Positions 9,389 through 14,270 of a stretch of 64,000 nt of DNA are shown in pieces. Location of the stretch: positions 1-64,000 of the forward strand of contig CAIKNP010000023.1 in assembly GCA_903828785.1 (NCBI GenBank), given 5' to 3'. Origin of the DNA: an uncultured Actinomycetes bacterium (GTDB lineage Bacteria > Actinomycetota > Acidimicrobiia > Acidimicrobiales > RAAP-2). Each line of letters begins with the position of its first letter. Position 1 is the stretch's first letter. The position numbers and the translations under genes were made by a program. Under the pieces are notes generated by a model. The model was not told the DNA's origin. It ran no database searches and was given only the letters and a program-made list of their open reading frames with translations.

Positions 9389-9407
9389 CAACGCCCCTAG
9401 GGCGTTG
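9389..9407. terminator. Bidirectional hairpin between bS22 and ispE
   Basis: Inverted repeat CAACGCCC-CTA-GGGCGTTG (8-bp stem, 3-nt loop) immediately after the bS22 stop. The loop CTA is the reverse complement of the ispE stop codon, so the hairpin sits at the 3' ends of both convergent genes. No U-tract follows on either strand, so terminator function is inferred from position. Confidence 0.5.
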
Positions 9408-10134
9408 TCCACGTTGGAACCACTCTTACCGAACCGGCGGGACCCTGCACGTCCCCAGCCGCGGCTTCACTTTCGAGGTGACCCTCGAGGAACATGGTTG
9501 AGCCCGATCCAGCCAGTTGCACGTCACCCATCCGTCCCCGCGCCCATCGCAGAGTTTCGCCCAGTCGTGGCTCAACGAGGACGGCCGCCGCTTCCAGGTG
9601 ATTGCGCCCCCCGGGCCGTTCACCGCTGGCCACCAGTTGGTCGTAGGCGGCGTACACCGACGCGGTCGCTACCGAAAACGAGGGAAGCAGCAAAGTGACC
9701 GCTCGCCGCTCAAAGGGCAGGGGGGTGATGCGCTCCCCCACTCCCTCGACGACCGCGCGCCCGCCACGTTGACAAAACGGCACGTCTCCACCCAGCCTGA
9801 GCGCCTCCTCGTCACTGACCCCGCCCGCCCAGCGCAGGATGGCCGCCGCGTCGGCGCTGCCACCCCCTAGACCACCACCCAGGGGAATGTTTTTCTTGAC
9901 CTGGACCGCGGCGTGACGCTTCACGAGACGCAGGGCTCGCGTCACCAAGTTGCTTTCGTCAGTAGCGAGTTCGGGGGCGTTCGTGAAACGTAACTCGTCA
10001 CCGTCGGCGTCGATCTCGAGTTCATCCGCCAAGGAAAGAGTCGTCATTTCGCTGCGTATCTCGTGGTAGCCATTCGCTCGCACCCCAGTAATTTCGAGGT
10101 ACCAGGTCAGCTTTGCTGGGGCCAGCCACGTCAA
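9397..10134 (-). CDS. ispE: 4-diphosphocytidyl-2-C-methyl-D-erythritol kinase
   Basis: GHMP kinase of the MEP isoprenoid pathway; phosphorylates CDP-methylerythritol at the 2-hydroxyl. The N-terminal APAKLTWYLEITG motif, NGYHEI, the ATP-binding loop PLGGGLGGGSADAA (about 81-94), the substrate loop GGDVPF and the C-terminal LAGSGSTMF are visible. At 245 aa it is shorter than the usual 280-310, mainly toward the C-terminus. The TTG start overlaps the rsmA stop (TTGA), indicating translational coupling, as expected for the conserved rsmA-ispE pair. Confidence 0.93.
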   Translation of the reverse strand: MTWLAPAKLTWYLEITGVRANGYHEIRSEMTTLSLADELEIDADGDELRFTNAPELATDESNLVTRALRLVKRHAAVQVKKNIPLGGGLGGGSADAAAILRWAGGVSDEEALRLGGDVPFCQRGGRAVVEGVGERITPLPFERRAVTLLLPSFSVATASVYAAYDQLVASGERPGGRNHLEAAAVLVEPRLGETLRWARGRMGDVQLAGSGSTMFLEGHLESEAAAGDVQGPAGSVRVVPTWTTP

Positions 10135-10952
10135 CGCGAAGCCGCCAGTCGGGCAAACTCCTCAAGGCTTAGTTCCTCGGGGCGGCGCGTTTCGGCAACG
10201 TCGGCGCGCTCGAAGACCCCCTCGGTAGCCCAGTCGTGCAGTGAGCGACGCAACATCTTGCGTCGCTGAGCGAAGGACGTGCGAATCACCGTGAAGAGAT
10301 CCGCTTCCGAAACCAGATCTGGCGAAATGCGCACCTCGGGGCGCCGAACGATGGACACCAATGCCGAGTCAACCTTGGGCTTGGGCACGAAAACGTTGGG
10401 GCTGACCTTACCCACGACGGTGGCGTCGGCGAAATACTGAATGCGTAAGGACACTGCGCCGTAGGCCTCGTCGCCGGCGTAGGCGGCAAAACGTTCCCCC
10501 ACTTCCTTTTGCACCATTACCAGCATGCGCGTGATGGCCGGCACCGTTTCGAGCAGGTGCAGTACCAGTGGAGTGGCCACGTTGTAGGGCAGATTTGCCA
10601 CCACGACGGCAGTACGGTCCCCCAGCAGCGCCTGGTAGTCAGCGGTGAGGGCGTCGGCGTGGTGCACGACGACGCCGTGTGGGGCGACCACCGAAGTGAG
10701 TGGCTCAATGAGGTAACGATCGACCTCGATCGCTTCAACACGGGCCCCCGTTTCCACCAGCGCGAGGGTGAGCGATCCCAGTCCTGGACCAATTTCGAGG
10801 ACCAGATCATCGGAACCCACGTCGGCCAGACGAGCTATGCGGCGAACCGTGTTGGGATCGACCACGAAGTTCTGGCCCAAGGCTCGCGAGGGCTTTAGTC
10901 CGTACTGTTCGAATAAGTCGGCGAGGGAAGTTCGAGTGTGGGTCACCACCAC
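10131..10952 (-). CDS. rsmA: 16S rRNA dimethyladenosine transferase
   Basis: Methylates A1518 and A1519 of 16S rRNA, a late small-subunit maturation step. The Rossmann SAM-binding motif is LEIGPGLGSLT, the acidic loop is EAIEVDR, and the catalytic motif is VANLPYNV; LGQNFVVD near the N-terminus is the family signature. Length (273 aa) is normal. The start is one of three consecutive GTG codons and overlaps the 3' end of the upstream PASTA/RlpA-like gene, so the exact start is uncertain by 1-2 codons. Confidence 0.94.
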   Translation of the reverse strand: MVVTHTRTSLADLFEQYGLKPSRALGQNFVVDPNTVRRIARLADVGSDDLVLEIGPGLGSLTLALVETGARVEAIEVDRYLIEPLTSVVAPHGVVVHHADALTADYQALLGDRTAVVVANLPYNVATPLVLHLLETVPAITRMLVMVQKEVGERFAAYAGDEAYGAVSLRIQYFADATVVGKVSPNVFVPKPKVDSALVSIVRRPEVRISPDLVSEADLFTVIRTSFAQRRKMLRRSLHDWATEGVFERADVAETRRPEELSLEEFARLAASR

Positions 10953-11827
10953 ACTCTGACAGGTACGACACCCCTGCCGAGCGGAGCGAGTTGAGAAAAC
11001 TGCGTTTCATTGAGGTCAACGGCCCGATTGCCATGGGCGCCTTCACGGTCAGTGACGACGCAACTGATGACGTGGCCGTTACGTAAGTCCTTTACCCAGA
11101 TGCGCGTGCCGTAGGGCAAATACCACGTCGCACAGCGTCCCGGCACGTAGTTGTACCAGGTGGCCACACCGAAGTGCACCTTGGCGTGGCGAATCTTGGG
11201 GGCTTTGGGCGTGGGGGGAAGAAGCGGAACGTGCTTTTGTCCCGCCGGAACCTTCATCAAGTGCTCCACCGTAACGATGATGGGGGTGCCGACGGGCACT
11301 CGCTGACCCGGTCGGGGATACTGGATGAGAACATCATTCCATCGCCCAACTTTGGTGCCAATTCGTAAAACGATCAGATGGTAGGCGTGACGGTGGGTGA
11401 ACCACTGGGTGAAGGACTGATTTTGCCCCTGCAGATTCGGCGTGGAGAAATAGTGGCGGCGCTGATGGGAAGCAGGATGGGTGGTGGTGCGTACCTTGGC
11501 TGAAGGTGCCGGACGAAGCGAAACGAGCAGGGTCACGGTGGAGCGAACCGGGACACTGCTACCAGCGGCGGGGATTTCACCGACCACGCGTAGCCAGTTA
11601 GCGGTATTGGCGCCCGGACCCTTGGTGGTGAAGAAGAGCTGTTTTTGCTGCAGGGCCGCGTAGGCCTGCGTCCGGGTCATTCCAACGAGATTGGGCATGG
11701 CCTCAACGACGTGCGACGATGACGCTCCCGAAGTAACCGGAAACGCTGCCGCGCCCACGAAGAGCGAAAGGGTGGCTACCAACAGTCCGCGAGTTCTTCG
11801 CGGACGGCGGTGAGGTTCTATCCTCAG
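10943..11827 (-). CDS. Secreted PASTA + RlpA-like (double-psi beta-barrel) protein in the RpfB position
   Basis: Secreted cell-wall protein of about 294 aa. From the proposed start: basic N-terminus and hydrophobic core (about 1-36) with an Ala/Ser-rich cleavage region and no lipobox; PASTA-like repeat 1 (about 44-103, MPNLVGMTRTQAYAAL); PASTA-like repeat 2 (about 132-192); then an RlpA/3D-type double-psi beta-barrel (about 216-294) with GVATWYNY, LPYGTRIWV, VVTDREG and RAVDLNETQF. PASTA domains bind peptidoglycan or muropeptides. It lies between tatD and rsmA, where Actinomycetota usually carry rpfB; no transglycosylase-like Rpf domain is present. The start is unusual: a strong AGGAGG lies 7 nt before an in-frame CTG (11827), which begins a perfect signal peptide. 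Upstream TTG (11911) and GTG alternatives have no ribosome site. Confidence 0.8.
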   Translation of the reverse strand: MRIEPHRRPRRTRGLLVATLSLFVGAAAFPVTSGASSSHVVEAMPNLVGMTRTQAYAALQQKQLFFTTKGPGANTANWLRVVGEIPAAGSSVPVRSTVTLLVSLRPAPSAKVRTTTHPASHQRRHYFSTPNLQGQNQSFTQWFTHRHAYHLIVLRIGTKVGRWNDVLIQYPRPGQRVPVGTPIIVTVEHLMKVPAGQKHVPLLPPTPKAPKIRHAKVHFGVATWYNYVPGRCATWYLPYGTRIWVKDLRNGHVISCVVTDREGAHGNRAVDLNETQFSQLAPLGRGVVPVRVWW

Positions 11828-11937
11828 TGTTCTTCCTCCTGGGAGTAGCCGGTTCGATACAACAACCAACGGCTCAACGCTAGGCACTATTGACTCTTTT
11901 GGCAACTCCAAAAGCCAATTTTTTATTATTTTACCTG

Positions 11938-11953
11938 ATAAATAATTATTTAT
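11938..11953. repeat. 16-bp AT-only perfect palindrome at the tatD 3' end
   Basis: ATAAATAATTATTTAT is a perfect 16-bp palindrome overlapping the tatD stop codon, in the most AT-rich stretch of the window (about 11909-11955). Next to it (11895-11913) CTTTTGG-CAACT-CCAAAAG forms a hairpin followed on the plus strand by a T-rich run. Function unknown; it may hold the promoter or an operator for the PASTA/RlpA-like gene. Confidence 0.45.
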
Positions 11954-12741
11954 TGGATGGGAAGTTTAAATAAGCGAGCCGAGTTTTCAGCCGTTGCCCG
12001 CCGAAGAACTTCGGCCTCTTCGCCGCGAATTTCGGCAACGAAAGCGCCCACGAGGGAGACGTAGGCCGGCTCGTTGGGCCTCCCGCGGTGGGGCACCGGG
12101 GCCAGGAAGGGACTGTCGGTCTCAACGTGAAGGCGATCGAGTGGGACGAGACGAGCAGCTTCACGAAGACTCTCGGCGTTCTTAAAGGTCACAATACCCG
12201 ACAAGGAAATATCGCAGCCCCAGGACAAGCACCCTTCTGCATCAGCCGGTCCACCAGTAAAGCAGTGGATCACCGTCCGCGGGGGCACGCCCTCTGAACG
12301 GAAGATGTCAAAGAGATCGTCGAAGGCGTCGCGGGCGTGAATGACCAATGCCAGATCCAACTCGCGGGCCAAGTGGAGTTGGCGAACAAAGGCGTCGCGT
12401 TGGGCGTCGCGTGGTGAGTGCTCGTAGTAGTAATCCAGTCCACATTCACCGATACCCACGAGGCGCGGGTGGCCAGCGCGGGCCATGGCGATAATGGGCT
12501 CGAGATCCTCAGTGGCGCTATGAGGGTGCAGGCCCACCGTGGCGTACATCGCAACGTCGTGGACCAGTTCGCTTATCGCGAGGGCCTCACGGGAGGACTG
12601 CTCGCCCGTCCCGATGACGACCACCCGGTCAACACCGGCCGCGTAGGCCCGGTCCAGCGTGGCTAAGGCGTCGCCCTCGACCTTCCATTCGCTTAGGTAC
12701 TTATCCTGCAGGTGGCAGTGTGCGTCGGTCCAGCGACTCAA
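11950..12741 (-). CDS. tatD: TatD-family metal-dependent hydrolase (DNase)
   Basis: A 263-aa TIM-barrel amidohydrolase-fold nuclease (YcfH/YabD type). Metal ligands appear in TDAHCHL (residues 5-11), GECGLDYYY, the VIHARDA strand, VIHCFTGG and the late HVETDSPFL motif. The ATG overlaps the end of metG by 4 bp, matching the conserved metG-tatD pairing of Gram-positive genomes. Probably acts in DNA repair or turnover. Confidence 0.92.
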   Translation of the reverse strand: MSRWTDAHCHLQDKYLSEWKVEGDALATLDRAYAAGVDRVVVIGTGEQSSREALAISELVHDVAMYATVGLHPHSATEDLEPIIAMARAGHPRLVGIGECGLDYYYEHSPRDAQRDAFVRQLHLARELDLALVIHARDAFDDLFDIFRSEGVPPRTVIHCFTGGPADAEGCLSWGCDISLSGIVTFKNAESLREAARLVPLDRLHVETDSPFLAPVPHRGRPNEPAYVSLVGAFVAEIRGEEAEVLRRATAENSARLFKLPIQ

Positions 12742-14270
12742 CTGTCAGCCTTAATGCGTGGAAAGAGGGGCTCCCCCTTCACAATTGGGTTAGTGGGCTG
12801 GTAGAGCCCCCATTGGGCGGTATCGCCGACGAGACCGTCAGTCGGACTTCCCGTCAAGCCAATGCGCTCCCAGATCTGCTGACAAATGCTGGGCATGGCC
12901 GGAGTGGCCAAAATCGTCACGATACGAATAGCCTCCAAAGCGTTCCCGAGTACCGCACGAAGTTCATCGCCCGCGGGCAGCTTCCAGGGTGCCGTGTTCT
13001 CGAGGTAGGCGTTGGTCGCCCCAATGAGACCCCACGTGGCCTCGAGCGCGTGGTGCGGAGCAAAGCGGTTCCAGGCTTCCGTGGTGTCGGCAATCGCCCG
13101 CTGAGCAGCGTCGCGCAGGGGGGCCTCAGCCTGGGGCAACGGGCCCACCCCATCACACTTACCCGCCACAATGGTGCTTACTCGAGCCACCAAATTACCC
13201 AGGTTGTTCGCGAGGTCCGTGTTGTAACGAGCGGTGATGCCCTCCAGCGAGAAATCGCCATCATTGCCCAGGGCCGTTTCACGCAGCAGGTAGTAACGAA
13301 TGGGATCGACACCGTACTCGTCGGTGAGGAGTACGGGTGAAATATCCGTCAAACGCACACCCCCTTCCGCCGCCATGGTCTTAGAGAGTTTCTGACCTCC
13401 GACCAAGAGCCAACCGTGCACTTGAACGTGGTGGACGGGATCGAGTCCCGCCGCCATGCACATGGCGGGCCACCAGACGCAGTGAAAGCGAATGATTTCC
13501 TTGCCCACCAGGTGGTTCGACACGGGCCACCACTCCTGCACCTCATCGTCGTCGCGACCGTAGCCAATGGCGGTGAGGTAGTTGATAAGGGCGTCGTACC
13601 AGACGTAGAAAACGTGCTTGTCGTCCCAGGGTACGGGGATGCCCCAATCAATCGAGGTCCGGGTAATGGAGATGTCCTTTAAGCCGCCCTTGATAAAAGC
13701 GTGGGCCTCGTTGTACTTGGTTTCGGGGCTCACGAAGTCGGGATTGGCGGCGTAGAACTCGAGTAGGCGGTCCTCAAAGGCACTGAGGCGAAAGAACCAG
13801 TTGTCCTCTTCCATCTGCGTCAGGGGCCGGCCGTGGACGGGACATTTACCCTCGTCACTGGCCTCGAGCGTGAAATAGTCCTCGCAACTCACGCAGTAAA
13901 GCCCGCTGTAGGTGTCTTTGTAGATGTAGCCGTTTTCGTAGACCTGGGTCAGAAATTTCTGCACCGTTTCAAAGTGACGGGGCTCTGTCGTACGGATGAA
14001 GTCGTCGTAACTGACGTCCAAAGCGTCCCAGGCCTCGCGAAAGCGCAGTGACGTCCGGTCGGTCCATTCCTGGGGCGAAACACCGTTCTTGGCCGCCGCG
14101 TCGGCCACCTTTTGACCGTGTTCGTCGGTTCCCGTCAGGAACTTCGTCTCGTCACCGCGCAAGCGGTGCCAGCGCGCGACGGCGTCCGCGTTGACCGTGC
14201 AGTACGCGTGACCGACGTGGGGAGCATCGTTGACGTAGTAAATCGGGGTGGTCACGTAGAAACGGTTCAT
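12738..14270 (-). CDS. metG: Methionyl-tRNA synthetase
   Basis: Class I synthetase charging initiator and elongator tRNA-Met. The HIGH motif appears as HVGH near residue 19-22, the KMSKS motif as KLSKT near residue 294, and a zinc knuckle is formed by CVSC and CPVH around residues 125-145. At 510 aa it ends after the anticodon-binding helical domain and lacks the C-terminal EMAP/tRNA-binding dimerisation domain. A TAGAAT hexamer ends 6 nt before the ATG with no Shine-Dalgarno, so the transcript is probably leaderless. Confidence 0.95.
   Translation of the reverse strand: MNRFYVTTPIYYVNDAPHVGHAYCTVNADAVARWHRLRGDETKFLTGTDEHGQKVADAAAKNGVSPQEWTDRTSLRFREAWDALDVSYDDFIRTTEPRHFETVQKFLTQVYENGYIYKDTYSGLYCVSCEDYFTLEASDEGKCPVHGRPLTQMEEDNWFFRLSAFEDRLLEFYAANPDFVSPETKYNEAHAFIKGGLKDISITRTSIDWGIPVPWDDKHVFYVWYDALINYLTAIGYGRDDDEVQEWWPVSNHLVGKEIIRFHCVWWPAMCMAAGLDPVHHVQVHGWLLVGGQKLSKTMAAEGGVRLTDISPVLLTDEYGVDPIRYYLLRETALGNDGDFSLEGITARYNTDLANNLGNLVARVSTIVAGKCDGVGPLPQAEAPLRDAAQRAIADTTEAWNRFAPHHALEATWGLIGATNAYLENTAPWKLPAGDELRAVLGNALEAIRIVTILATPAMPSICQQIWERIGLTGSPTDGLVGDTAQWGLYQPTNPIVKGEPLFPRIKADS

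Follow-up and report, generated by a model that had tools for sequence, protein, structure and literature searches.

The gene between tatD and rsmA

The DNA analysed here, a stretch of 64,000 nucleotides called the window below, carries five neighbouring genes on its minus strand, in the order metG (12738..14270), tatD (11950..12741), a gene designated X (10943..11911), rsmA, also known as ksgA (10131..10952), and ispE (9397..10134). The genes metG, tatD and ispE were assigned from the list of open reading frames and from conserved gene order, and the start of rsmA overlaps the stop of X by 10 bases. In many actinobacteria, the locus between tatD and rsmA is the home of rpfB, a gene that breaks dormancy. 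X lies between tatD and ksgA/rsmA, the position by which an RpfB is recognised. A previous sequence-only reading of the window had placed X in the rpfB position of this gene order, and both the open reading frames and the relatives described below agree with it. The span that it gave to X, 10943-11950, was correct at its lower end only; position 11950 is the stop of tatD, and the frame of X ends at 11911.

Counted from the first TTG, X has 322 amino acids, a length that depends on a start that is uncertain. A candidate start is the CTG at 11827-11825, which is preceded by GGAGGA as read by eye. If this start is used, residues 29-63 (11723..11827), also read by eye, would be a probable signal peptide. 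Just ahead of the signal peptide, many members of the genus have a stretch resembling GGTGGAGATCTGAG, and its counterpart in the window, at 11825-11850, is GGAGGAAGAACACTGAGG. A CTG start with its ribosome-binding site would explain this stretch, and it is from such features that we infer the start codon and the cleavage of the signal. An Rfam search at gathering thresholds, which covered the window and L001, returned two tRNAs only and no riboswitch for X or for the stand-alone rpf gene described below.

The Pfam PASTA profile matched X with an E-value of 4.9e-12 (46.1 bits, cut-off 23.2), the best stretch being residues 72-131. The DPBB_1 profile matched residues 261-320 with an E-value of 8.3e-5, which is under Pfam's own cut-off. 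At E-values up to 1, there was no Pfam match in X to Rpf (Transglycosylas, PF06737), to DUF348 or G5, or to the 3D domain. An AlphaFold2 model, for which 34 proteins of the genus served as input, had a mean pLDDT of 74 and a pTM of 0.40. The N-terminus and the linkers of the model are of low confidence, and the mean pLDDT of ten-residue blocks is 66-96 within two PASTA-like units and a barrel. Taken with the open reading frame and the Pfam matches, the model describes X as a PASTA-PASTA-DPBB protein that is predicted to be secreted. The first PASTA domain, residues 69-131 (11519..11707), was identified by Pfam, the model and structure matching, and a second PASTA kinase, discussed below, carries a domain of this type at its C-terminal end. 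The second, residues 154-217 (11261..11452), is diverged and was placed by the model together with a partial HMM match at residues 185-215. The double-psi beta-barrel (DPBB), which is RlpA-like and extends over residues 245-322 (10946..11179), was identified by Pfam, alignment, the model and structure matching. All three domains are on the minus strand. The combination of PASTA and DPBB and the lack of an Rpf domain, both proposed beforehand from the letters, were thus borne out by Pfam and the model, and the signal peptide, also proposed beforehand, is probable. Of the two PASTA-like repeats proposed, the first was confirmed by Pfam, and the second, weak by sequence, is supported mainly by the predicted structure.

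Searches with Foldseek and VIA-align related the first PASTA domain to those of PknB and penicillin-binding proteins (PBP), residues 69-134 superposing on PknB PASTA with a VIA-align Z of 9.8. The matches of the barrel were PA4485 of Pseudomonas (4avr; VIA-align Z 13.3, 1.5 A over 78 residues), the papain inhibitor of Streptomyces, a loosenin and expansins. The barrel is called RlpA-like because the profile alignment shows NDRGP and IID in the sequence of PA4485. Against the NCBIfam rlpA model (TIGR00413), X scored 15.5 bits, far from the curated 82.15. The possibility was considered that the C-terminus conceals an Rpf fold, which would have spoken against the sequence-only reading, but it was rejected, the model and the structure matches both being DPBB. 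Membership in the YabE-type 3D group was likewise rejected on the absence of a 3D match in Pfam. YuiC and MltA do not occur among the best 50 structural matches listed for the barrel, which is not evidence against kinship.

Occupants of the slot in the genus and the phylum

X was matched in 60/60 of the same-genus genomes examined. At the locus itself, it is present in 63/63 genomes of the genus (62 plus G019); the locus reading comprised 67 rows that represent 62 distinct genomes, five rows being second copies. The DPBB was found in 62/62 distinct genomes and PASTA in 56/63 (55/62 plus G019), with one to four copies. On 59/61 stretches of the genus other than the window, X is accompanied by both tatD and rsmA, and the other two are cut by contig ends. 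Because every one of the 60 genomes matches and the order at the locus is conserved, X is not a chance frame, and the homologues between tatD and rsmA on which the earlier interpretation depended do exist. The 10-base overlap of X with rsmA recurs in every row that has rsmA except L003. In G019 (L244), the locus encodes two PASTA domains and a DPBB; a long loop is inserted after the first cysteine of this barrel, and Pfam DPBB_1 misses the copy. With PF03330, one DPBB was found in 57/61 genus genomes, and G019, G024, G034 and G044 were missed though X is present. At the thresholds used, X is the only DPBB detected in the genomes of the genus, and it is more constant than Rpf.

The distribution of Rpf was less regular. 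The sequence-only reading had proposed a search for an Rpf domain elsewhere in the genome, and one was found on contig C16. This single PF06737 match in the window's genome (G000:C16:86531-86710) belongs to a stand-alone Rpf of 157 amino acids, whose N-terminus resembles a signal peptide and whose sequence includes CEVAGNW. Across the genus, a Pfam Rpf match was present in 39/61 genomes and missing in 22/61. The matches in the genus end at profile position 65-72 of 77, which indicates a shortened or diverged end of the Rpf domain. Rpf was found in 39/55 genomes in which X has PASTA vs 0/6 in which it has none (p 0.0005, a value that includes a seventh PASTA-less genome, G169, also without Rpf). 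Since the PASTA-less rows form one early-branching grade, this contrast represents one or a few events, and it is not independent evidence of complementarity.

The slot was then compared in two sets of loci obtained via rsmA matches: 60 from the order, which represent 58 families (two loci each from f1 and f7), and 40 from elsewhere in the phylum, with a single locus for each family. The counts come from local HMMs whose seeds were taken partly from the same loci. In the order, 17 loci hold a DPBB, 16 an Rpf (including L065, which is weak, and L063 and L089, which are partial) and 25 are empty, that is, with a tatD-rsmA gap of at most 157 bases and no domain; L087 and L095 were left unassigned. 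A Pfam check of 30 proteins of the order gave Transglycosylas in 14, DPBB_1 in 14 and SLT in 2, and another Pfam check covered 10 proteins. In the rest of the phylum, there were 8 DPBB, 6 Rpf and 4 3D loci, and at 22 none was found, several of these being truncated or having tatD out of reach. DUF348-G5 accompanies 7/8 DPBB, 3/4 3D and 6/6 Rpf loci outside the order, and it occurs in 0/33 of the DPBB or Rpf loci within it. These counts indicate that the cutting domain and the adaptor both vary at the slot and that the DPBB occupies it regularly. L088 and L093, from two different families of the order, have two Rpf matches each at the rpfB locus, those of L088 lying within one protein. Genomes of the order sample had no Rpf match in 7/17 cases where the locus holds a DPBB vs 2/25 where it is empty (Fisher p 0.019, with ancestry uncorrected and the remaining 18 loci excluded, of which 16 hold an Rpf and 2 are unassigned).

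The proposal that X is an actinobacterial case of domain replacement was accordingly upheld in that the slot does exchange wall-cutting domains, but the DPBB is no isolated case, since it also occupies the slot elsewhere in the phylum. The change that is specific to the genus is the gain of PASTA and not a swap of Rpf for the barrel.

Exchange at this locus has a precedent. Passages of Ravagnani 2005 (PMC1084345) describe RpfB/YabE domain displacement between tatD and ksgA, and the words RlpA and double-psi do not occur in its available text. According to portions of PMC4499186 on YuiC, the Sps domain is a pared-down form of MltA whose reaction yields an anhydro product. PPA2239 of Propionibacterium acnes is annotated as DUF348-G5-DPBB_1 in excerpts of PMC3224659 and PMC3848858. 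RpfB (DUF348-G5-Rpf), as portrayed in the passages of PMC1084345, has in common with X the locus, secretion (predicted for X) and the logic of an adaptor joined to a wall-cutting domain. However, X lacks DUF348/G5 and Rpf, its adaptor is PASTA and its C-terminal domain a DPBB. YabE/SpsB of Firmicutes (DUF348-G5-3D, in the order tatD-rnmV-ksgA) resembles X in the displacement locus and in an MltA-related C-terminal barrel, going by passages of PMC1084345 and PMC4499186; the barrel of X is DPBB_1 and not 3D, the adaptor is another one, and no gene lies between X and rsmA. The DUF348-G5-DPBB proteins (PPA2239 in excerpts of PMC3224659; L100, L109 and L135 by Pfam) also carry a C-terminal DPBB on an RpfB-like protein, but these rows mostly keep AH-x-LP, DRGP and DUF348-G5 and have no PASTA.

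The active site of the barrel

In the alignment, Asp299 (11015..11017, minus strand) takes the position of the RlpA catalytic Asp. The same column holds a Ser in E. coli RlpA (RVISLS), which was fetched for comparison. Passages of PMC9712689 report that E. coli RlpA is inactive because its catalytic Asp is replaced by Ser. Since that inactive protein has Ser at this very position, Asp299 is likely the catalytic residue of the X barrel. Asp288 (11048..11050, minus strand) is the Asp of a DRGP-like motif, here DREG, and a disulphide is likely between Cys284 and Cys260 (11060..11134, minus strand). Thr251, Cys260, Cys284 and Asp288 are kept in 63/63 rows of the genus. Asp299 is kept in 62/62 readable rows, row L187 ending before it at a contig end. 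Equivalents of Cys260 and Cys284 are missing in 7 DPBB rows of other classes.

X therefore has the DPBB fold and the catalytic Asp of RlpA, but not the two sequence motifs for which we use the labels AHRTLP and DRGP, taken from the alignment. In the genus rows, AHRTLP has become CATWYLP or similar, and DRGP has become DRE, DRQ, DKE or similar. With both motifs altered, the active site of X is remodelled. Loss of the motifs does not by itself set the genus apart, because L083, L084 and L049, from outside the family, deviate from them as well. Compared with E. coli RlpA, the only RlpA used for this comparison, X lacks the TASGE region and the AH of the AHRTLP-type motif. Pseudomonas RlpA (DPBB and SPOR), as described in parts of PMC8820737 and PMC9712689, likewise joins a lytic barrel with a catalytic Asp to a separate peptidoglycan-binding domain; X has PASTA instead of SPOR, and on the opposite side of the barrel. 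In family f7, barrel HMM matches were also obtained in L199 and L200.

A lytic function is not the only one that such a barrel could have. The DPBB_1 match is under the Pfam cut-off, and DPBB folds also occur in expansins and in the papain inhibitor. The possibility was considered that X acts on the wall without catalysis, in the manner of an expansin or loosenin; PASTA and barrel would then both bind wall polymers, and the barrel would loosen or mark the wall and do no cutting. The altered AHRTLP and DRGP in the aligned genus rows are consistent with this, as are the expansins and a fungal loosenin among the nearest folds, and decay does occur at the locus, for in family f7 the DPBB protein L046 is without both aspartates and in L099 the catalytic position is taken by Glu. 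However, every readable row of the genus keeps both aspartates, the residues that go missing in clear cases of decay, and we regard a non-cutting X as less likely than not.

Likely source of the PASTA domain and proposed role of X

On a tree of tatD and rsmA, the presence of PASTA in X needs one change (SH-aLRT 98). The tree has 63 rows, namely 62 of the genus (without G019) and, to root it, L040, which belongs to a different genus of the family; it was a quick tree without bootstrap, with 19/60 inner branches open. The seven PASTA-less rows of the genus branch early. In other genera of the family (L040, L260, L261, L268), the DPBB is present and PASTA is absent. Among 296 genomes of the class, matches covering both PASTA and the barrel are confined to the genus, and PASTA was found in 0/19 of the barrel matches from outside it that were read (3 within the family and 16 outside). 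DUF348-G5 was matched in 13/16 of the barrel proteins read from outside the family, two of them weakly. In our samples, PASTA in X was gained once, within this genus. While RpfB/YabE-type domain displacement and the DUF348-G5-DPBB annotation are already known, the PASTA part is, in the same samples, special to the genus. The open-licence literature that was searched yielded no PASTA-DPBB protein; in the available portions of PMC7154730, PMC3989709 and PMC3987819, PASTA and RlpA/DPBB-type terms occur only apart.

Two PASTA kinases are encoded in the window's genome. One, on contig C27, is PknB-like and has HRD and DFG. The second (G000:C1:116865-118652; L154/L202) is a predicted pseudokinase, and its C-terminal PASTA matches X. 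Most genomes of the genus have clear full matches to the second kinase, and a few, such as G052, have weaker kinase matches. The HRD aspartate is lost in 28/28 readable rows of the genus, and DFG is exact in one. Ten genomes of other families were compared by their best kinase match, and HRD and DFG are retained in nine of these (L231-L238, L240); HRD is lost in L241 of G066 and also in G100, of the same family. L240 and L241 were omitted from the alignment of the catalytic loop. The second kinase of the genus is thus predicted to be a pseudokinase, and we know of no study of it.

The C-terminal PASTA of this kinase and the PASTA of X have in common the signature 'LYF-T-GPG...W'. For 118/123 PASTA domains of X, the best match other than X is the C-terminal PASTA of the genus kinase. 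An HMM made from X PASTAs only gave 26 kinase C-terminal PASTAs a median of 82 bits and a minimum of 64. With the same HMM, the other classes of kinase PASTA had medians of 11-17 bits and a maximum of 40.5, two extra X-type copies inside genus kinases being set aside. For the G100 kinase, the score was 10.5 bits at the C-terminal end and did not exceed 24.9 anywhere. In a tree of PASTA domains (62 columns, 237 rows, 125/233 inner branches open), one change splits the 151 X and kinase-type rows, a group without internal resolution, from 86 others. Furthermore, an X-type PASTA is present in the kinase of 5/5 readable genomes whose X has none (G013, G016, G040, G056, G169); in G006, the kinase is cut by a contig end, and in G052 it was not found. 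Transfer from kinase to X is the likely direction because these early-branching genomes already have the kinase PASTA. Parsimony favours an origin of this PASTA in the kinase within the genus, followed by one copy into X.

The opposite history, in which PASTA is old in X, was lost several times early and was copied from X to the kinase, or in which both came from an older source, would be helped by the shortness of the domain, the poor resolution of the PASTA tree and the open branches of the quick species tree. We regard it as unlikely, since other genera of the family have X without PASTA, one gain fits the tree where losses would take several events, and the genomes with a PASTA-less X have kinases with the X-type domain.

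We give about an even chance to the reading that X is a secreted, PASTA-targeted wall-remodelling protein of a lytic-transglycosylase-like kind, with its PASTA copied from the kinase. X would be secreted and would remodel peptidoglycan from the rpfB slot, its DPBB acting like RlpA/MltA-type lytic transglycosylases. Asp299, as catalytic acid/base, would cleave the glycan, and Asp288 would help to hold it. The PASTA would bind peptidoglycan or muropeptides and so put the barrel at sites of wall synthesis or turnover, a role like that of SPOR in RlpA and possibly that of DUF348-G5 in RpfB and YabE. According to PMC3145798, the PASTA of PknB is a muropeptide binder that directs the kinase to mid-cell and poles. 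PknB-type kinases have a PASTA fold like that of X, and X and the kinase of the same genus share the X-type PASTA itself; X differs from them in lacking a kinase domain and in its predicted secretion. If the domain was copied once from the PASTA at the extracellular C-terminus of a receptor, the predicted membrane pseudokinase, then enzyme and receptor would probably recognise the same wall feature. Through such activity, X may serve in growth or resuscitation.

The alternative that X is a secreted protease inhibitor, related to the papain inhibitor of Streptomyces and anchored to the wall by PASTA, appears highly improbable, for although NCBIfam Papain_Inhib gave a weak match (E 0.0027, 17.7 bits, cut-off 150) and 5ntb is among the PDB matches (profile E 1.3e-5, Z 9.8), 4avr outranks 5ntb in both profile and structure matches, and other families hold Rpf, 3D or DPBB wall-type proteins at the same locus.

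The wall-remodelling reading may be carried further, to a matched effector-receptor pair in which the enzyme acts at sites surveyed by the PASTA pseudokinase and the receptor tracks its substrate or products without kinase activity. This extension is speculative, and we think it rather unlikely. The PASTA domains of kinase and X from one genome are no closer than pairs across genomes, and their distances gave a partial r of 0.56 vs 0.46 for the X-barrel control (20 genomes; G022, with no C-terminal kinase PASTA row, was skipped). Because the pairs are no closer and r is not clearly above the control, an ongoing partnership of kinase and X is unsupported by sequence. If true, the pair would offer lineages in which Rpf can be missing another route than muropeptide signalling from Rpf to PknB.

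Displacement of domains at the rpfB locus has been published for Actinobacteria compared with Firmicutes, and here both halves of the gene are exchangeable inside one phylum, the cutting domain being Rpf, DPBB, 3D or nothing and the adaptor DUF348-G5, a low-complexity linker or PASTA. For the newest adaptor, the likely source can be named, the ectodomain of a pseudokinase. It can now be tested whether the ligand-binding module of a sensor can be moved onto a wall enzyme, so that the two would share one address. Where relatives have no detected Rpf, X is a candidate for wall remodelling or resuscitation.
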